64,000 nt of DNA, from the NCBI RefSeq assembly GCF_034314085.1, contig NZ_JAVIWI010000001.1:310001-374000 (forward strand). Reading direction: 5' to 3'. The stretch comes from Undibacterium sp. 5I1. Its GTDB lineage: Bacteria > Pseudomonadota > Gammaproteobacteria > Burkholderiales > Burkholderiaceae_D. The notes below the pieces were generated by a model, which was not told where the DNA came from, ran no database searches, and saw only the letters and a program-made list of their open reading frames with translations. Below are positions 2,180 through 64,000 of this stretch, piece by piece; the stretch's first letter is position 1; each line of letters opens with the position of its first letter. A program made the translations under genes and the position numbers.

Positions 2180-2369
2180 AACCGAGATTTCCCATTAGGC
2201 GTACCAAAGGTGCTATTTGAGTGCTGACGGCGCATTTTCGGTCATTTTCGATGCTCTTCGTTACTGCTCATGGCTAGCCATGAGCGTCTTATTTACAATA
2301 AACTCAGATCAAAACTGCCTCGAAAAATACATCCGTCATCAACTCAAATCCTAATGGAAAATCTCGGTT
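2180..2369. mobile_element. Family C MITE-like element, 190-bp subtype (copy C1)
   Basis: The ends are inverted repeats: AACCGAGATTTcCCATTAGG on the left and CCTAATGGAAAATCTCGGTT on the right. The element is flanked on both sides by the 5-bp direct repeat TATTT (2175-2179 and 2370-2374), the signature of transposition. It carries no ORF. A closely similar copy is at 50847-51034. The outer bases are shared with the 232-bp elements at 36754 and 39477, whose interiors are unrelated. Confidence 0.85.
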
Positions 2370-4087: not shown

Positions 4088-4120
4088 GATTTATTTTAAA
4101 GCTCTGAAAAATTAAGATTT

Positions 4121-4221
4121 AGGACTTATGCAAAATTGTCCCAGCAAGGCGTAGCGACGAAGATAGTACTTTGGTGCAGCTAGGAGCTATAACGCAGCTG
4201 GGGCGGTTTTGCGTGAGTCCT
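4121..4221. repeat. Family A dispersed palindromic repeat (copy A1)
   Basis: The terminal inverted repeat is AGGACTTATGCAAAATTGTC / GGCGGTTTTGCGTGAGTCCT. Reverse-complemented, it aligns along its whole length with the copy at 49137-49232. It lies between selD and tal and has no coding capacity. Confidence 0.85.
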
Positions 4222-4248
4222 AAGATTAATAAAAAACCGAGATACTTC

Positions 4249-34509: not shown

Positions 34510-36015
34510 ATGACATCAACTGTATTTAGATCCACACTCCGATCATCAAGATCAACACCAGCGCCTGCTTTATTGTCTAGCTTACGGCTTTCCGTGATTG
34601 CAGCGAGTCTGCTGCTAGCAGGCTGCAGCGCGATCGGACCTGATTATCAGCGGCCAGCATTTGATACGCCAGCAAAGCTCACGAGCGGTGTTACAAGCAC
34701 TGGAAAAACTAGTGCAACGACCGATTGGCTGAGCTGGTGGAAGTCTTTCCAAGACCCTGTTTTAAACAGTATGCTGGATGAGGCAACTGCCAATAACCAG
34801 GATATTTTGCTGGCAGCAGGGCGGGTGGAAGAAGCACGTGCGACCGCAGCCTCAGCCAACTCCAATCGTTATCCTACGGTGGACGCGAATTTATCCGGCA
34901 CAAAAAGTCGTACCAGTGTCAACTCCGGCAAATTGGTGCCCGGTGCCAATCCGATTGGTACCGATTATCAGATCGGTTTAAGCGCGTCTTATGAGGTGGA
35001 TTTCTGGGGTAAGCTCAGTCGCGCCGATGAGGCTGCACGTGCCCGTTTGTTATCGCAAGAAGCCAATCGCGGCATGGTGATTAACACCTTGTATTCCAAC
35101 CTGGCGCAAAATTACTTTGCCTTGCGGGCTTACGATGCACAAGTAGAACTGGCCGAATCGACACTCAAAACTCGTCAGGAAAATCTACGTTTGCAACAAA
35201 AACGTTTTTCTTCCGGCTCGATCGGTGAGCTAGATTTACATCAGGCAGAATCTGATACCGCCGCGACAGAGATTAGCTTGCTGCAAGCGAAGCAATCGCT
35301 GGCAGTCACAGAGTCTGCCATTGCCGTCTTGTTAGGACGTTCGCCCTCTGCAATTGCCAATCCGGTGATTGCACGAGGCAGTAGCATTGATAGCCTGTAT
35401 CAGCAAGCGACAGTGCCAGCCGACTTACCATCGGATCTGCTTAACCGCAGGCCAGACATCATCGCTGCTGAACAAACACTGGTTGCTGCCAACGCTGATA
35501 TCGGTCAAGCCAAGGCGCAGTATTTCCCAAGCCTGAAGCTGACCACTGGCTATGGCGACGAGTCGCGTGGCTTTAAGGATTTATTTAATCCAGCTTCTTT
35601 GCTGTGGAATATTGGAGCGAATATTGCACAACCAATCTTCCGCGCCGGCGCGATTGGCGCGCTGGTGTTCGGTGCCGAAGCGCGCAAAACGCAAGTCTTG
35701 GCGCAATATGTACAAAGTGTGCAAGGGGCGTTCCGCGATGTGCATGATGCGTTGGTCAACACGGCTGCCAATGAGCAAATTTACGCAGCTGGCAATCGTC
35801 GCGTCACCGCTTTAAAAGATTCATTGCGTCTGGCCGACTTGCGCTACAAAAACGGTTACAGCAGCTATCTTGATGTGCTCAGTGCTCAACGCGATTTGTT
35901 GCAAGCGCAATCGACTTTGATCGACACCCAGCGGGCTCATCTGGCTGCTGTTGTCAGTATCTATAAAGCTGTCGGTGGTGGTTGGGATAAGTCAGAGAAA
36001 ATCGCAGCTAAGTAA
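34510..36015 (+). CDS. oprM: Outer-membrane efflux channel lipoprotein (OprM/NodT family)
   Basis: A 501-residue outer-membrane factor. The lipobox SLLLAGC puts the lipid-carrying Cys at about residue 39, then SAIGPDYQRP, the usual NodT start. Two OEP repeats are visible, for example LRLQQKRFSSGSIGELDLHQ and LRLADLRYKNGYSSYLDVLS. The ATG at 34510 is used because AGAGGAA lies 6 bases upstream. It is the last gene of the pump operon. Its 3' third and downstream sequence occur again in decayed form at 38823-39473. Confidence 0.95.
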   Translation: MTSTVFRSTLRSSRSTPAPALLSSLRLSVIAASLLLAGCSAIGPDYQRPAFDTPAKLTSGVTSTGKTSATTDWLSWWKSFQDPVLNSMLDEATANNQDILLAAGRVEEARATAASANSNRYPTVDANLSGTKSRTSVNSGKLVPGANPIGTDYQIGLSASYEVDFWGKLSRADEAARARLLSQEANRGMVINTLYSNLAQNYFALRAYDAQVELAESTLKTRQENLRLQQKRFSSGSIGELDLHQAESDTAATEISLLQAKQSLAVTESAIAVLLGRSPSAIANPVIARGSSIDSLYQQATVPADLPSDLLNRRPDIIAAEQTLVAANADIGQAKAQYFPSLKLTTGYGDESRGFKDLFNPASLLWNIGANIAQPIFRAGAIGALVFGAEARKTQVLAQYVQSVQGAFRDVHDALVNTAANEQIYAAGNRRVTALKDSLRLADLRYKNGYSSYLDVLSAQRDLLQAQSTLIDTQRAHLAAVVSIYKAVGGGWDKSEKIAAK

Positions 36016-36291
36016 ATACGTAATTGGTAAAAAATGGGGGGTATATGGTAAAAATACCCTTCATGTCCATATATTTATTGGACATTAAAATATACAGTAG
36101 TGAGTATATTTTATGTTATCAAGCTTTCCCTTGGAGATGTGAGGTGTTGTTTGGAGCCCATTCAGACGACGCTCCATCTCTTTTTTTGTTTTTACGCTGG
36201 GATAGATTTTTCCGGTATTGCCAACTTGCTGAACGGAGACGGGGAGTTGTACAATTTCAGGCGAACTTGCATTTGCCTGGGTAACACGGTG
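36016..36291. other. Region between oprM and the IS6 transposase
   Basis: It contains repeat B3. A weak hairpin (TGGAGC / GCTCCA followed by a T-rich run, about 36150-36190) may end the pump transcript. The left boundary of the IS6 element lies somewhere near the end of this region, but I could not find a clear inverted repeat. Confidence 0.4.
36036..36113. repeat. Family B dispersed repeat (copy B3)
   Basis: In inverse orientation to B5, it reads GGGGGGTATAT on the left and GAGTATATT on the right, with central GTCCATATATTTATTGGAC. It lies 20 bases after oprM, just as B4 lies after the oprM remnant. Confidence 0.8.
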
Positions 36292-37239
36292 TCACGGATT
36301 AGTTTTTTTTGCTACGTTGGTGACCTCATTCCATACAGAAAATGCCTGCCTACGCATGTGTCGGTACTGCTCCGCTGTCATACGGTTTCGCTGACACCGG
36401 AAGACATTGTTGATCGGGCCATGAGCCGATAAAAAGCGCTGAGCATGGCCCGATGATGTGAAGCGCCGCATCTGTCGTTCTCGTTGCCGCGTAGGTTGGT
36501 GCGAGAGTTCTGCACGGTTATTGAGGCCTTTGTGCTGGCGATGCTCGACACCCGGCATGATGTGCGTCTTCGCCGCGACATAACTCTTGAGCTTGTCGGT
36601 GATTAGCACTCGTGGTGGGTAACGTAAGCCCTTGAGAAGCTTGCAGAAAAAACGTTTTGCCGCTTGTCGGTTGCGCCGACTCTGCAACAAAATATCGAGC
36701 ACATGTCCGGTCTGATCGACCGCACGCCACAGGTAATGGTGCTTGCCCTTAATCCCAGATTTTCCATTAGACCGCTACCACTTCGCAGAAACGCAGACGG
36801 CGTGCGGTCTTCAGAGGTATAGCACGACCGCGATTTGAGTGCGAGCGCTACAGCGACAATTACACCTTTGGCGAACTGCTTGGCGTTGTTGCTCCTCCTA
36901 GCAAGATGCAGCTTGCGTCGTCGTCGCGTCTAGCCAGTCAGTCCGACAAAGGCACACTTGTCTCTGTTCCAATGGAAAATCTGGGTTAATTGTTAGCACC
37001 ACCTCGTCGAGATGCCATTTGTCTCCACGTTGCGGTTGACGCCGGCGAAGCTCATTGGCATAGCATTGGCCGAACATCGTCCATTGGCGGATCGTCTCAT
37101 ACGTGACGATGATGCCACGGCTGGCCATTAGTTCTTCTATGTCGCGAAAACTCAGCGCGAACCGGAAGTAGAGCCACACGACATGGCTGATGATTTCTGC
37201 TGGGTAGCAGAAGCCGCAATAGAGCAAAGATTTTTTCAT
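36292..37239 (-). pseudogene. IS6-family transposase split by a 232-bp MITE
   Basis: The N-terminal part (MKKSLLYCGFCYPAEIISHV to WHLDEVVLTI) carries the first catalytic Asp. The C-terminal part (KGKHHYLWRAVDQTGHVLDI onward) carries the second Asp in VLITDKLKSYV and the Glu in NNRAELSHQPTRQRERQM. Between them lies the element at 36754-36985 flanked by TTAAT. Removing it with one TTAAT restores a continuous frame (...VLTI-KGKHHYL...) of about 237 residues, the normal IS6 length. The enzyme was therefore intact before the MITE insertion and is now inactive. Confidence 0.9.
36754..36985. mobile_element. Family C MITE, 232-bp subtype (copy C2), inserted in the IS6 transposase
   Basis: The terminal inverted repeats are CCCAGATTTTCCATTAG and CCAATGGAAAATCTGGG, and the 5-bp target duplication TTAAT lies at 36749-36753 and 36986-36990. 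It has no ORF of its own. It is homologous along its whole length, in inverse orientation, to 39477-39709. Confidence 0.92.
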
Positions 37240-37393
37240 CTCGCCACCTTACAATATCGCCCCGCCGCCCGTAAGTTGACAGTATCTACAAAATATATGA
37301 AGAATGAACGCTCGTAAAATAGACGAACCGCCTGCGAGATTGCAAGAAGTTTCGTTCTTGATTTGTCGTTCAAATGGTGCGTTGTAACGCACC

Positions 37394-38551
37394 CTACTCA
37401 AGCCCCACCACATTCTCCAGTACCGCCGCAATTCGCCCTGCCAGCGGCAACACACCGGGTTCATAATTTGACAGCACGACCACGGTATAACCAGCATCGA
37501 GATACATATCAAGATTACTGGAAATGCCGGGGAACTGCCCGCTGTGGCCCACGATTTTACCCAGCTTGCCCGAGCGTAATTCGAAGCCATATCCATAGCT
37601 GCCCTTGTCTGCACGGCCTGCGGTCTGGTCTTGCCAGAATAACTGGCGCGTTGCTGGCTTGAGCAACTTGCCAGTCTGAAGTGCATCCGCAAAGCGCAGC
37701 AGGTCTGGTGCGTTTGAGTAGCCTATGCCATAAGGGCCGCCGCGTACTGGTATCAGGACGGTGTTTTCTTTCCTGCTGGCTGTCGCACCTCGCGTGCTGA
37801 TGTAGCCGGTGGCGAGGTTTTCTGTTCCCTCATCCCTGATATAGTTATCGGTACTATTCATGCCTGTCGCCAGAAACACATGCTGGCGTACATAGTCAAA
37901 ATAATCTTGTCCCGAGACTTTTTCTATGATGACACCGAGGAAAAACATACCCATATTGCTGTACAAATAATTGCTGCCGGGCGCAAACTCCAGTGCCGCA
38001 TCGCGTATAAATGGCTTGTAGTCAGCCAAGTTTCGCATGGCGGCCATCTGCATATACGGACCGTTGGTAAACTTGTTGGTAAAAATATTTCCCAGCCCAG
38101 ATGTGTGCGACAGCAACTGGCCGATGGTGATTTTTTTCGCCACCTCAGGTGACAACCAGCTGGCATCCACATATTTGCTGACCGGGTCTGCATAGGACAA
38201 ACGCCCCGCATCCGCTAGCTGGCCTATGGCAACCGCCGTAAACATCTTGCCGACCGAGGCGACATTGAAGATGGTATCCATCGTATTCGCCACATGATAA
38301 CGCTTGCTGGCTTCACCACATGCTGCTTCGCTGATGACATGATTGCCCCTGGCGACGACATACACACCTGAAAATTCATCCTTGCTACAGACTGTGCTGA
38401 ATAAGGCTTGCAACTTGTCTTTCAGTGCAGCTTCCACAGCGGGCGACAGAGCCGTGTTTTTATCTGTAATTGCATACGCAGCGGTTTGTCCGGCAACCTG
38501 GGATGACAATATCAAACTCAGTATGGCTGGCAGTGCATGGTATGGACGCAT
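37394..38551 (-). CDS. Serine hydrolase of the beta-lactamase/penicillin-binding protein-like family
   Basis: A secreted protein of about 385 residues with a signal peptide (MRPYHALPAILSLILSS to TAAYA). The SxxK nucleophile motif is in NVASVGKMFTAVAIGQ, YxN is YSNMGMFFLG, and the third motif appears as HSGQFPG. This is the class C beta-lactamase fold (Pfam Beta-lactamase), which also covers esterases and D-aminopeptidases, so beta-lactam resistance cannot be assumed. The ATG at 38549-38551 is preferred for its signal peptide; 38572 is the alternative. It lies between the 5' ends of two inverted IS6 copies and may have moved with them. Confidence 0.85.
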   Translation of the reverse strand: MRPYHALPAILSLILSSQVAGQTAAYAITDKNTALSPAVEAALKDKLQALFSTVCSKDEFSGVYVVARGNHVISEAACGEASKRYHVANTMDTIFNVASVGKMFTAVAIGQLADAGRLSYADPVSKYVDASWLSPEVAKKITIGQLLSHTSGLGNIFTNKFTNGPYMQMAAMRNLADYKPFIRDAALEFAPGSNYLYSNMGMFFLGVIIEKVSGQDYFDYVRQHVFLATGMNSTDNYIRDEGTENLATGYISTRGATASRKENTVLIPVRGGPYGIGYSNAPDLLRFADALQTGKLLKPATRQLFWQDQTAGRADKGSYGYGFELRSGKLGKIVGHSGQFPGISSNLDMYLDAGYTVVVLSNYEPGVLPLAGRIAAVLENVVGLE

Positions 38552-38651
38552 TAGTTTTCTTTTCGGGTGCATGGATGAGAAGCGGTAAAAATTTTGTTGA
38601 CAGCTTTTGTTGACTGTAATTCATGACGTTGTCGATTTTATATGAGTATGC

Positions 38652-38826
38652 GGTATTGTCAACTTACGGGCGGTGGAGAAATTTTGTAAAGTAGCGTGAT
38701 GAAAAAATCTTTGCTCTATTGCGGCTTCCGCTATCCGGCAGAAATCATTAGTCATGTCGTGTGGCTCTGCTTTCGGTTTGCGCTGAGTTTTCGCGACATA
38801 GAAGATCTGCTGGCCAGCCGTGGCGT
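38652..38826 (+). mobile_element. Truncated IS6-family element (5' end only)
   Basis: It repeats the first 175 or so bases of the IS6 element at 37286-37112 on the opposite strand: the terminus GGTATTGTCAACTTACGGGCGG-like, then a start codon at 38699 and about 42 transposase residues (MKKSLLYCGFRYPAEIISHV to ASRGVI). It is cut at codon RGVI, where oprM-derived sequence takes over. Confidence 0.8.
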
Positions 38827-39381
38827 CATCGCCGCTGAACAAACGCTGGCCGCTGCCAATGCTGACATCGGTCAGGCCAAGGCGCAGTATTTTCCAAGCC
38901 TGAAGCTGACTACCGGTTATGGCGATGAGTCGCGTAGTTTTAAGGACTTGTTTGATCCGGCGTCTTTATTGTGGATGTGGGCGCTGGCATTACACAACCA
39001 ATCTTCCGCGCCCTCGCGATTGGCGCGCTGGTGTCCGGTGCCAAAGCGCGCAAAACGCAAGCCTTGGCACAATATGTACAAAGTGTGCAAGGCGCGTTCC
39101 GCGACGTGCATGATGCGCTGGTCAACACGGCTGCTAATGAGCAAATTTATGCGGCAGGTAGTCGTCGTGTCACAGCGTTAAAAAGACTCACTGCGTATAG
39201 CTGACTTGTGTTACAAAAACGGTACAGCAGCTATCTCTATGTACTCAGCGCGCAGCTTGATTTACAGCAAGCCCAATCGACTTTGACTGATACTCAGCGG
39301 GCACATCTGGCTGCTGTTGTCAGCATCTACAAAGCCGTCGGCGGTGGTTGGGATAAGTCAGAGAAACTCGCTGCTAAGTAA
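38827..39381 (+). pseudogene. Decayed duplicate of the oprM 3' part, fused to the IS6 transposase start
   Basis: From AAEQTLAAANADIGQAKAQY this matches residues from about 318 onward of the intact channel gene at 34510-36015. The frame is the same as the truncated transposase, so a chimeric ORF starts at 38696 or 38699. A shift occurs after DPASLLW (near 38970), since the match continues in another frame as ITQPIFRALAIGALVSGAKA. A second shift occurs near 39185. The end matches the last residues AVGGGWDKSEK. It cannot give a working channel because the lipoprotein signal and the first OEP repeat are missing. Confidence 0.88.
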
Positions 39382-39397
39382 CCGTTTAATTAAAATA

Positions 39398-39476
39398 AGG
39401 GGGGTATACGCCGAAAATACCCTTAATGTCCATAGGTTATTTGGACGTTAAAATATACTGTAGTGAGTATATTTAA
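39398..39476. repeat. Family B dispersed repeat (copy B4)
   Basis: It reads GGGGGGTATACG on the left, GTCCATAGGTTATTTGGAC in the centre and GAGTATATTTAA on the right. It lies 17 bases after the oprM remnant and matches B3 closely, so it was copied together with the oprM 3' end. It touches MITE C3. Confidence 0.8.
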
Positions 39477-39709
39477 CCCAGAATTTCCATTGGTACAGCG
39501 ACAAGTGTGCCTTTGGCGGATTGAATGGCTAGACGCGACGACGACGCAATCTGCCTCTTGCCAGGAGGAGCGACAACGTCAGGCAGTTCGCCAAAGGCAC
39601 AATTGTCTCTGTAGCGCTCCCACTCGAATCGCGGTGGTGCTATCCCTCCGAAGACCGCATGTCGTCTGCTTTTTTTGCGAAGTGATAGCGGTCTAATGGA
39701 AAATCTGGG
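39477..39709. mobile_element. Family C MITE, 232-bp subtype (copy C3)
   Basis: The inverted repeats are CCCAGAATTTCCATTGG and CTAATGGAAAATCTGGG. Flanks TTTAA / TTTAC are an imperfect 5-bp duplication. The interior is the reverse complement of C2 with scattered differences. It also holds an internal inverted pair TGTGCCTTTGGCGGA / TCGCCAAAGGCACA. Confidence 0.85.
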
Positions 39710-39772
39710 TTTACAGGTCGAATCAATCAGTTTCGCCTTTTAAAGGTGCGGTGCTAACCTGAATCACAAAAT

Positions 39773-39803
39773 GAAAAAGCCATCCTTTAAGATGGCTTTT
39801 TTT
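39773..39803 (-). terminator. Rho-independent terminator after rho
   Basis: AAAAAGCCATC / GATGGCTTTTTT has a 6-base loop and lies 28 bases after the rho stop. It is symmetrical and could work both ways. Confidence 0.85.
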
Positions 39804-39830
39804 AACTGAGATTCAAATTGAGACTAAGAC

Positions 39831-41093
39831 TTAATTCCCACGACGCATCATTTCAAAAAACTCTGCATTGTTCTTAGTTGCCTTCATTTTGTCGAGGATG
39901 AATTCCATCGCTTCGATTTCGTCCATGCTATATAGCAACTTGCGCAAAATCCAGATTTTTTGCAATTGATCAGGTTTGATGAGTAACTCTTCACGGCGCG
40001 TGCCGGACTTGTTCAAATTGATCGCAGGGTAAGTACGTTTCTCAGCCAGACGGCGTTCGAGATGCACTTCCATGTTGCCGGTACCTTTAAATTCTTCATA
40101 GATCACATCATCCATGCGGCTACCAGTTTCGATCAGTGCAGTAGCGATAATGGTCAGTGAGCCACCTTCCTCTACGTTACGTGCAGCGCCGAAGAAGCGC
40201 TTCGGACGTTGCAGCGCATTTGCATCAACACCACCTGTCAATACCTTACCAGAGGCCGGAATGACAGTATTGTAAGCACGTGCCAGACGGGTGATCGAGT
40301 CGAGCAGAATGACCACGTCCTTTTTCATTTCGACTAGGCGCTTGGCTTTTTCCAGCACCATCTCAGCGACTTGTACGTGACGGGTAGCTGGTTCATCAAA
40401 CGTCGATGCAACAACTTCACCGCGTACGGAGCGTTGCATCTCAGTCACTTCTTCCGGGCGTTCGTCAATCAGCAAGACGATCATCGTAACGTCTGGATGA
40501 TTGGTGGTAATGGCATGCGCAATATGTTGCAGCATGACGGATTTACCGGATTTAGGTGACGCTACTAATAAGCCGCGCTGGCCTTTGCCGATAGGGGCGA
40601 TCAGATCAATGATACGGCCAGTGGTGTTTTCTTCACCACGCATATCACGTTCTAATTGCAAGACTTTGTTTGGATGCAGCGGTGTTAAGTTTTCAAACAG
40701 AATACGGTGTTTGGAGGCTTCTGGCGCTTCGCCATTGACCTTGTCCACTTTGACCAGGGCGAAATAACGTTCGCCATCTTTTGGTGTGCGGACTTCACCC
40801 TCAATCGAATCGCCTGTGTGCAGGTTGAATCGTCGGATCTGTGAAGGAGAGATATAAATATCGTCGGTAGATGCCATGTAACTGGCATCGGGCGAGCGCA
40901 AGAAGCCAAAGCCGTCTGGCAATACTTCTAAGGCGCCATCGCCAAAAATTTGTTCGCCGGATTTGGCGCGTTTTTTCAGGATTGCGAACATAAGTTCTTG
41001 TTTGCGCATCCGTGCTGCGTTGTCAATGTCTAAACCGATGGCCATTTCTAGCAAGGCTGAGACGTGTAACGCCTTTAATTCTGATAAGTGCAT
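39831..41093 (-). CDS. rho: Transcription termination factor Rho
   Basis: A 420-residue Rho, the normal length. The N-terminal domain and RNA-binding fold ([20 protein letters not shown]) are followed by the ATPase: Walker [15 protein letters not shown], Walker [17 protein letters not shown] and the Q/R loops around [20 protein letters not shown]. It is a hexameric RNA helicase that ends untranslated transcripts. The gene order trxA then rho is conserved in many proteobacteria. The 280-base leader is AT-rich and could carry the usual rho autoregulation (inference). Confidence 0.97.
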
Positions 41094-50846: not shown

Positions 50847-51034
50847 AACCGAGATTTTTCATTAGACGCACCATAGGTGCTATTTGAGTGCTGGCGGCGC
50901 ATTTACGGTCATTTTTTGATGCTCTTCGTTGCTCACGGCTAGCCATGAGCGCCTTAGTTACAACAAACTCACATCAAAACTGCCTCGAAAAGTGCATCTG
51001 CCATTAGCTCAAATCCTAACGGAAAATCTCGGTT
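50847..51034. mobile_element. Family C MITE-like element, 190-bp subtype (copy C4)
   Basis: The ends AACCGAGATTTTTCATTAG and CTAACGGAAAATCTCGGTT are imperfect inverted repeats. The interior is closely related to C1 at 2180-2369. No clear target duplication is seen, so it may be old. It spans the lgt upstream region and the last codons of the LysR gene. Confidence 0.82.
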
Positions 51035-57803: not shown

Positions 57804-58394
57804 ATGCAAGACCAAAAAACTATTCAACCGCCGGACATTAATCAGCGCATTGCAAACCGACTGAGCAGCCTGCGGGCTGAGCGCGGTATGTCGCTCGATG
57901 CACTGGCGACCAAGTCGAACGTCAGTCGTTCTATGATCTCTTTGATTGAGCGCGGGGAGAGCAGTCCGACAGCGGTAGTCCTGGATAAATTGTCGTTTGG
58001 TCTGGGTGTCACGCTAGCCTCGTTTTTTGAAGAGCCGCAGCCTGATGCTAATCCACTAGTAAGGCGCGAGGAGCAATTACTGTGGATAGATCCACAGTCA
58101 GGTTATCGTCGCCGGAATATTTCACCGCCGCATTTCCGTTCGTCTATTCAGTTGGTTGAGGTGGAGTTTCCTGCCGGTGCGAGAGTGTCTTATGCAGCGG
58201 GTTTGCGTGAAGTCGGGATACATCAGCAGATCTGGGTACTGGATGGCTCGCTGGAAATTATTTGGGGTGATGTGCACCATCATCTGGAGAGCGGCGATTG
58301 TCTGGCGATGGATGAGAACAGTGCAATCGTTTATCAAAACACCAGTAACCGCCCGGTACGTTATGTCGTCGCGATTAATACCGCATCCATTTAA
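57804..58394 (+). CDS. XRE-family regulator with a C-terminal cupin domain
   Basis: A 196-residue regulator. The HTH at about residues 12-66 reads LRAERGMSLDALATKSNVSR and MISLIERGESSPTAVVLDKL. The cupin lies at about residues 110-190 (VEFPAGARVSYAAGLREVGI; LESGDCLAMDENSAIVYQN). Such proteins sense a small metabolite. It is followed by two acetyltransferase genes, with gaps of 95 and 21 bases, so it may regulate them. Confidence 0.92.
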   Translation: MQDQKTIQPPDINQRIANRLSSLRAERGMSLDALATKSNVSRSMISLIERGESSPTAVVLDKLSFGLGVTLASFFEEPQPDANPLVRREEQLLWIDPQSGYRRRNISPPHFRSSIQLVEVEFPAGARVSYAAGLREVGIHQQIWVLDGSLEIIWGDVHHHLESGDCLAMDENSAIVYQNTSNRPVRYVVAINTASI

Positions 58395-63333: not shown

Positions 63334-63822
63334 TTAAAACCGGAGTTCCAGTTTTTCATATGGTTTAATCTGCGACCATATCGCGTTTAGCTCCACTGCT
63401 TGCTGGAATAAGGTGTGTGCCAAACTCTCCGCCGGTACTGCTGGCGCCTCAATATTGCGTGCCTCAGCCGCAGTTTGCAGCCCATAAGCAAACGCGTCGT
63501 GATCAAAATTGCCGCTCCAGAGTTGTGTCTGCAATGCCTCAACAATCGCCTCGGCTTGCACTGCGCCCCGTTCAACATCCCGGCGCTGAGTGTCGTGGGT
63601 CAGCTCCATGACAAACTGTGCATCGGCACCTTGCGCTACCAGACTTAAAAAACCGTCACTGAGTTTCAGCCCGGTTTCCACCACAAAATGCACCAGATCA
63701 TGCGGCAGCACACCTTGGCGCGGCATCTCGATTTCACTAACAGAGCTATCTTGCCGGATGAACCTTAGCAAATCCGATTTTTCCGAGGGCGGGCGCTTGG
63801 TCGCAGTAAGAAGCATGGTCAT
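63334..63822 (-). CDS. Hypothetical protein, 162 residues
   Basis: I do not recognise this protein. It has a small basic N-terminus (MTMLLTATKRPPSEKSDLLR) and then a mostly helical, acidic sequence. LPHDLVHFVVETGLKLSDGF and VELNAIWSQIKPYEKLELRF are the most conserved-looking parts. There is no signal peptide or membrane segment. The reading frame is long and clean, and the ATG has no obvious ribosome binding site. It faces away from repeats A6/B7 and is not in an operon with htpG. Confidence 0.7.
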   Translation of the reverse strand: MTMLLTATKRPPSEKSDLLRFIRQDSSVSEIEMPRQGVLPHDLVHFVVETGLKLSDGFLSLVAQGADAQFVMELTHDTQRRDVERGAVQAEAIVEALQTQLWSGNFDHDAFAYGLQTAAEARNIEAPAVPAESLAHTLFQQAVELNAIWSQIKPYEKLELRF

Positions 63823-63922
63823 ATCTAAATTAATCCGTTCGTAGCGCTCTCACCAGAACGGTGATGGTGAAAACCCTAGCATCAGTCAATTGAATCAACT
63901 ACTTAATTATACTGACGAGCGG

Positions 63923-64000
63923 TCAACTGCCGTTTCTAGGTTTTATCTTCATCCCATCTGCTTTATCTTCCACCTCATACCCCAATGTATGCAAGGCTGC
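63923..64000 (-). CDS. C-terminal end of an unidentified protein
   Basis: The reverse strand is open from the right edge to a TGA at 63923-63925 and reads AALHTLGYEVEDKADGMKIK then PRNGS. It is only 25 residues, so I cannot name the protein. The amphipathic, charged C-terminus suggests a soluble enzyme. Confidence 0.45.
   Translation of the reverse strand, partial: AALHTLGYEVEDKADGMKIKPRNGS

Follow-up and report, generated by a model that had tools for sequence, protein, structure and literature searches.

A 232-bp MITE within an IS6 transposase gene of Undibacterium sp. 5I1: probable mobilisation by an IS1380-family transposase, and a hairpin conserved beneath two kinds of ends

We analysed a stretch of 64,000 nucleotides (the window) from Undibacterium sp. 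5I1 (NCBI RefSeq assembly GCF_034314085.1, contig NZ_JAVIWI010000001.1, positions 310,001 to 374,000), in which an IS6 transposase gene on the minus strand lies in two pieces, separated by a 232-bp element that runs from CCCAGATTTTCCATTAG to CCAATGGAAAATCTGGG and has a perfect TTAAT on each side (Table 1). Its 17-bp ends match at 16 of 17 bases, the left reading ...TTAG where the right reads ...TTGG. No open reading frame of 50 amino acids or more lies wholly inside the element, and those that touch it extend into the flank. The element is therefore of the kind known as a MITE, being short, bounded by terminal inverted repeats and without a transposase gene, and its family shows target-site duplication in many copies at unrelated sites. 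The ends and the TTAAT duplication that a sequence-only reading of this DNA had assigned to it are right to the base. The same reading had joined the two flanking pieces into one split IS6 transposase, and here too the data agree: searched apart against NF033587 (IS6 transposase, 202 positions) the pieces score 74.0 and 77.9 bits, each alone falling below the whole-protein cut-off of 125 bits, and the frame passes across the element minus one TTAAT with remainder 0, as calculated from lengths by arithmetic and not by joining letters. Between the two family A copies of the window, positions 37394-38572 of the minus strand encode a member of Pfam family PF00144 (Beta-lactamase).

Table 1. Features of the window, with its own numbering, followed by IS1380 elements of other genomes
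Feature	Position or length	Strand	Basis or remarks
Family B MITE, 186 bp	2182..2367	+	Ends CCGAGATTTCCCATTAGG / CCGAGATTTTCCATTAGG; flanks TTTAA/TTTAT
IS6 transposase gene, C-terminal piece	36292..36748	-	NF033587 positions 96-201; PF13610
Target duplication TTAAT, left copy, 5 bp	36749..36753	.	Sequence
Family A MITE, 232 bp	36754..36985	- (strand of the putative hairpin RNA)	Ends, copies, duplication; strand as suggested by mismatch and folding data
Left terminal inverted repeat CCCAGATTTTCCATTAG	36754..36770	+	Matches both ends of L130 and L163 (IS1380 elements) at all 17 bases
Long covarying stem (helix 2 of alignment A5), 3' arm read on minus strand	36850..36884	-	Coordinates mapped by hand from A5
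Long covarying stem, 5' arm	36933..36967	-	Coordinates mapped by hand from A5
Right terminal inverted repeat	36969..36985	-	16/17 bases like left repeat
Target duplication TTAAT, right copy, 5 bp	36986..36990	.	Sequence
IS6 transposase gene, N-terminal piece	36986..37239	-	NF033587 positions 4-80
Second family A copy, 233 bp, opposite orientation	39477..39709	+	Flanks TTTAA/TTTAC
Family B MITE, 184 bp	50849..51032	+	Flanks GTGAA/TTAAA
Truncated family C element (probably)	63783..63940	-	End CCTAGAAACGGCAGTTG at 63924-63940; 56 bits with model R1
L163, Nitrosomonas sp. NMNS01	1480 bp		IS1380 element; flanks TTCAA/TTCAA
L130	1496 bp		IS1380 element; flanks TTGAA/TTGAA
L176, Betaproteobacteria bacterium UKL13-2	1517 bp		IS1380 element; flanks TTCAA/TTCAA
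L171	1517 bp		IS1380 element; flanks TTTAA/TTGAA (4/5 match)
G028, same genus	1517 bp		IS1380 element with the same ends, only nearly intact; flanks ATAAA/ATAAA
G287, four stop-free copies			Ends CCGAGATTGTCCATTAG; perfect repeats ATAAA, TTGAA, TTTAA, TTAAA

It had also been claimed that the element moved after the IS6, and the second contig of the same genome (C2, 171 kb, presumably a plasmid) bears this out. In both C2 copies of the IS6 that cover the insertion site the segment is absent and the site is empty, the separately searched flanks meeting with a 5-base overlap; the empty site that was read in one of them is ATCAA in IS6 sense, one base off the ATTAA of the window. The insertion site falls outside both a third C2 copy (57819-58385; 82-85% alike) and a chromosomal fragment. 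Since two IS6 paralogues have the site empty, the 232-bp segment arrived after the IS6.

Other copies of the element, which we call family A, are numerous. The one at 39477, already named in the sequence-only reading, is real, with an imperfect target duplication, and the genome (4.88 Mb, 2 contigs) holds at least 35 full-length and at least 5 shortened copies; this is a lower bound from 40 scored candidates out of 81, with a few further shortened copies in another listing. For 30 copies that were fetched with their flanks, the 5-bp repeats are perfect in 23 and differ by one base in 7, so that all agree at 4 or more of 5 bases; the left flank is TTNAA in 26, and the flanks differ from copy to copy. 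With at least 40 copies and repeated flanking duplications, the ends of the element are not a product of chance. Neither of the two observations that the sequence-only reading had named as counter-evidence was made, since there are further copies and both IS6 paralogues that span the site lack the segment. The copies diverge from the family A consensus by 0.5-7.8% (31 copies), the one at 36754-36985 by 3.4%. Family A DNA, body or ends, matches 16 of the 43 genus genomes, and no match was found when a plasmid collection was searched with the MITE DNA.

Two further observations concern the copies and their surroundings. In 4 of the 7 imperfect repeats (30 family A copies, G000:C1, the first contig of the window's genome) it is the middle base that differs, which is what recombination between copies exchanging flanks would be expected to give, although mutation is also possible. 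Within the window a 650-bp stretch, taken from the outer-membrane efflux gene and the region downstream of it, is duplicated (38826-39474 and 35459-36111, 84.6%). At its left the duplicated copy adjoins a 178-bp IS6 piece (38654-38831), and its other border falls inside the left 5-bp flank of the 39477 MITE; these borders suggest that recombination of an IS or MITE made the duplication.

The sequence-only reading knew of no transposase with these ends and proposed a search for an autonomous element that shares them. Such elements were found. We scanned the GTDB species genomes for TTNAA followed by CC[CG]AGATTTTCCATTAG and obtained at least 115 stretches, of which 80 were taken as loci. End pairs with 4 or more of 5 matching flank bases were counted in these loci; 43 of the pairs are short (<600 bp) and 7 are long (>=600 bp). 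Four of the long pairs (L163, L130, L176 and L171) are insertion sequences with one transposase gene; L140 and L175 are two others, and the seventh, L119, was rejected as an insertion sequence, its ends enclosing an ordinary metabolic gene. Within the genus, a search of 43 genomes yielded the nearly intact element of G028 and a degraded IS1380 relative in G009. In the transposase gene of G028 the first 28 residues are in a different frame from the rest, an apparent frameshift near the gene start or an assembly error in a genome that is 73% complete. More widely, 18 of 392 family genomes gave any IS1380-transposase match, one genome (G287) having four stop-free copies. The transposases of L163, G028, L130, L176 and L171 score 249.9-268.7 bits with NF033539, the IS1380 model (cut-off 180), against at most 50.7 bits for the next-best family, and the two of them tested with Pfam both match DDE_Tnp_1_4 (PF13701).

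What links these transposases to the MITE is its ends and its target. The left end of the element at 36754-36985 is the same as the ends of L130 and L163 at 17 of 17 bases, and a 5-bp TTNAA-like duplication is common to the MITE and to eight IS1380 elements with perfect repeats (L130, L163, L176, G028 and the four of G287). From full-length elements that share its 17-bp ends and its 5-bp duplications, we consider it probable (roughly 0.8) that the 232-bp segment, a non-autonomous MITE, was mobilised in trans by a DDE transposase of the IS1380 family, and this family can take the place of the unknown enzyme of the earlier reading. Duplications of 5 bp are made by Tn3 elements and TIMEs as well (PMC4133298, in the portion available), so that some other system of this kind, such as a Tn3-derived TIME, might have moved the element and the likeness to IS1380 ends might be incidental. 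We regard this as very improbable: TIME ends are given there as 38-40 bp against 17 bp here, a comparison of sizes and not of sequences, and an incidental likeness would have to extend both to the 17 identical bases and to the shared TTNAA-like target.

An IS1380-family enzyme, then, is the one that we favour. Against it stand the failure to find an IS1380 gene in the genome (see below) and the fact that the ends are all the sequence that the MITE has in common with the IS1380 elements found. All five of the IS1380 elements examined have a second inverted CTAATGGAA copy just inside one end, which the MITE is without. The TTNAA rule probably marks a subgroup of IS1380, since some more distant IS1380 genes have other ends, CTAG or GACTA repeats, or no end pair. 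Specifically, 12 distant loci were scanned for end pairs and flanking repeats: two (L227 and L243) conform to the rule, two (L231 and L237) have CTAG, one (L235) has GACTA, and 7 yielded none; three plasmid elements show ATAAA (L293), CTAG (L295, ISPosp7) and nothing convincing (L294). The first of these, from an Aliarcobacter plasmid, still has its 5-bp ATAAA repeat with a transposase that is 39% identical. A search of the PDB by sequence with the L163 transposase returned no match up to E 1.

The genome of the window itself gave no IS1380 gene, with 0 matches to PF13701 and 0 by tblastn with two of the transposases; the PF13701 search found matches in 3 of 14 control genomes. Across the 43 genus genomes PF13701 scores above cut-off in 4, with a nearly full-length gene in one, and below cut-off in 7 more. 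We infer that family A is an orphaned MITE, which spread with an IS1380 enzyme that has since been lost or was supplied by a visitor. The sequence-only reading had described the element as caught in the act, and of this the insertion stands but the act is overstated: with the copy 3.4% off its consensus and no IS1380 gene found in the genome, the insertion at 36754 need not be recent.

Family A is accompanied by a second MITE family, B, of about 171-186 bp, whose ends (CCGAGATTTTCCATTAGG) are nearly the same and whose flanks are of the same type. It occupies about 13 places (16 matches) in the window's genome and matches over 80 bases or more at 22 of the 80 loci, including those of Undibacterium amnicola, U. 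seohonense and U. macrobrachii. At G000:C1:1377541-1377950 the two families are nested, a family A element (TTAAA/TTAAA) lying inside a family B element (TTGAA/TTGAA). In 22 aligned family B elements 19 pairs on one strand and 23 on the other show double-sided changes, and no clear strand preference is seen (-41.8 vs -54.2, with G-U exceeding A-C on both strands). Strong folding is predicted for either strand of the 50849 copy (z about -5).

A third group, family C, joins a body that aligns with that of family A to other ends, namely CCTAGAAACGGYAGTTG, CCTAGATTCCTCAGTTG, CCTAGAAACCTCAGTTG or CCTAGCCCCGGTAGTTG. Its elements are mostly 228-253 bp long, one of the searches for them having covered 222-260 bp only, and come from relatives in the genus and from the window's genome, which has at least 6 full copies. 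Compared with the family A consensus, 13 of 13 family C elements beat all 100 shuffles of each, with body identities of 58-73%. At end positions 7-15, however, only 2-3 of 9 bases agree with family A in 12 of the 13, whereas the two ends of each single element agree with each other at 14-16 of 16. Ends that differ from those of family A and yet match each other imply that both changed in step. The sequences that flank family C elements are often TTNAA or ATNAT; in some copies they repeat perfectly, in others with at least one mismatch.

A concerted change of this kind could mean that the transposase was exchanged, or that one IS1380-like transposase takes both kinds of ends and no switch occurred. 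The latter would fit the opening CC[CT]AGA that both end kinds have in common and the 5-bp TTNAA or ATNAT repeats that flank many copies; it is less easily squared with the few agreeing bases at positions 7-15, or with the fact that an exact 17-mer search of 392 family and 399 order genomes gave no autonomous element with family C ends among the matches listed. We hold a single transposase to be quite possible, though short of even odds.

Two candidates for a family C partner were rejected. The only IS-sized pair with C ends among the matches listed, of 1776 bp in G547 (L354), contains an IS4-like protein (72.7 bits, below the NF033592 cut-off of 115) that is framed by an inverted repeat of its own further in; positions 509-2284 of L354 thus hold an IS4-like element with inner ends GGTAACGGTGTCTGG, seemingly inserted in a family C MITE. 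In G435 (L391) a C-type end sits within the remains of an IS1380 gene and not at its ends. Viral contigs searched for both end kinds gave 2 stretches of C type and 4 of A/B type, and no element pair.

The body that families A and C share is predicted to fold into a long hairpin, and many of the changes in its paired positions are compensatory. We used an alignment of 36 elements (A4; 6 of type A and 30 of type C and variants) and a subset of 29 of these (A5). In the plus sense the 36 rows give 46 pairs, 27 of them changed on both sides; in the minus sense the 29 rows give 56 pairs, 37 changed on both sides, at -85.6 kcal/mol. The minus-sense pairing holds in 96.0% of cells of the 29 rows, against 35-43% with slid partners, and its covariation is 0.536 against at most 0.120 in controls. 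None of 500 shuffles reaches any of five hairpin measures, counts that are not independent since the copies are related.

The two strands are not equivalent in this respect. For the identical 36 rows the consensus energy is -42.0 in the plus sense and -84.4 in the minus sense, and among 76 single copies the minus sense folds more stably than the plus sense in 40 of 40 and 35 of 36. The copy at 36754-36985 reaches -99.4 on the minus and -84.2 on the plus strand, with z of -5.45 vs -3.06. Mismatches point the same way: the ends and main stem, 38 pairs in all, have 60 A-C against 8 G-U mismatches when read in the plus sense (28 vs 8 distinct pair/type cases), and A-C cells in the plus sense are G-U on the opposite strand. 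Structure prediction itself favours G-U on whichever strand is folded, and as the main-stem pairs counted were those predicted on the plus sense, the count leans against a minus-strand conclusion. Two small helices (8 pairs) that are predicted on the plus sense and not on the minus show the opposite pattern, 104 G-U vs 1 A-C, and we regard them as weak. An earlier view, that so few G-U pairs in the ends and the stem indicate DNA palindromes, was reversed by the A-C count together with folding of the other strand.

We take the mismatch pattern to point to selection on a single-stranded form, which by these folding models would probably be an RNA of the minus sense. The correction of palindromes by template switching is a process familiar from the general literature, and it could make imperfect palindromes perfect during replication and so produce covariation with no selected structure behind it. 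Plus-sense changes in the ends and main stem do lead almost exclusively from one Watson-Crick pair to another (239 cells with both sides changed, and only the 8 G-U cells among 38 pairs), and the ends follow the stem in this, as such a process would have it. Template switching would, however, be strand-symmetric and would erase mismatches, whereas those that are kept are strongly skewed towards A-C, and pairs 32-127 and 33-126 are conserved as U-G or G-U in most sequences; we find this explanation somewhat unlikely. The hairpin might also be needed as single-stranded DNA, in transposition or replication. DNA hairpins too tolerate G-T better than A-C, so strand asymmetry alone cannot separate DNA from RNA; the target duplications and the DDE transposase of the relatives nonetheless point to a substrate with double-stranded ends, and no single-strand transposase is linked to the element here. 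A role as single-stranded DNA therefore seems to us unlikely.

For a selected RNA of the minus sense, as we prefer to read the hairpin, the distribution of the structure can be outlined with a covariance model (R1). It gives 51 matches in the window's genome and something in 34 of the 43 genus genomes, many of them weak, with at most 51 candidates scored per genome and rough E-values. A search of positions 36500-40000 against Rfam (up to E 1) gave two weak matches, neither of them on the MITE. By rough ORF calls, a gene lies upstream in the sense of the RNA in 23 of 30 of the genome's own copies but in 11 of 30 others, and no consistent orientation bias relative to neighbouring genes was found; a crude 13:3 split of tandem neighbours was set aside because it took no account of how the elements are oriented. 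Elsewhere in the window, a model of the body hairpin without ends has a weak match at 4115-4227 of the minus strand (17.7 bits, E 1e-4), an old remnant or chance.

Taken with the concerted change of the ends, these observations lead us to a tentative hypothesis, to which we would give somewhat less than an even chance: that this Burkholderiales MITE lineage carries a strand-selected hairpin RNA and replaced the two ends by which a transposase recognises it, either in a single step or in concert, and so exchanged its enzyme (IS1380-type for family A, that of a still unknown element for family C) while the RNA body was kept. If so, what lasts in the element would be its RNA rather than the transposase.

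The mechanism that we propose begins with an IS1380 element, now lost from the genome or a passing visitor, whose transposase would bind both 17-bp ends, cut out or copy the element and join it to a 5-bp staggered cut at TTNAA. Once in place, the element may be read through in the minus sense from a neighbouring promoter, giving a transcript with the long stem. This stem could then be selected as RNA, for instance because it protects or processes the transcript into which the element has inserted or limits the harm of the insertion.

MITEs that have a parent IS are well documented; what may be new to the specialist is that both ends changed together on a hairpin that is itself conserved and pairs in a strand-specific way. 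The analysis supplies a likely enzyme for this high-copy MITE family, and CC[CG]AGATTTTCCATTAG ends following TTNAA provide a rule that retrieves at least 115 stretches from public genomes. Moreover, if the hairpin is a selected RNA, it would offer a clean case for what keeps MITEs alive after their transposase is lost, a question that the comparison of A-C with G-U mismatches between strands opens to direct testing. Four end sequences are absent from the open-licence papers searched, and no report of a MITE with IS1380 ends was found in the open-licence literature searched, including the portions available of PMC3542288, PMC4133298, PMC11578231, PMC10813416, PMC3281130 and PMC9330008.

Among known systems the IS1380 family resembles the MITE in its target duplications. 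ISPsp9 and ISPa33 make duplications of 5 and 4 bp (PMC4133298) and IS1247 one of 5 bp (PMC3281130), as reported in the parts of these sources available, so that this family's duplications of 4-5 bp compare with the 5 bp of the MITE. The MITE differs in that it has no transposase gene and an unrelated body, only the 17-bp ends and the target being common to both. The piggyBac elements insert at TTAA-type targets with a 4-bp TTAA duplication, have CCC-type ends and excise precisely. In such general features family A is like piggyBac in its TTAA-type target and CCC-type ends and unlike it in the length of the duplication; IS1380 has itself been used as an outgroup of eukaryotic piggyBac (PMC10813416, in the portion available).

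Among MITEs, MITEAba12 (parent ISAba12) and MITEPye1 (IS1182) are likewise short, with the TIRs of an IS and target duplications (PMC6382973; PMC11578231), and MITEAba12 has also disrupted a gene (PMC6382973). It lives alongside its parent IS, however, whereas for family A no parent was found in the genome. A folded transcript has been reported for MITEPye1 (PMC11578231), but neither source, in the part available, mentions a conserved covarying hairpin. For the stem the nearest models may instead be ERIC and the Correia elements (CREE), which are also MITEs with folded transcripts. The sequences and the hosts of both differ from those of family A. Correia transcripts fold and are processed by RNase III, and those of ERIC by RNase E (PMC10969869, as far as the text available goes), and the Correia elements are set apart from family A by TA as their commonest duplication (PMC9330008, likewise in part).
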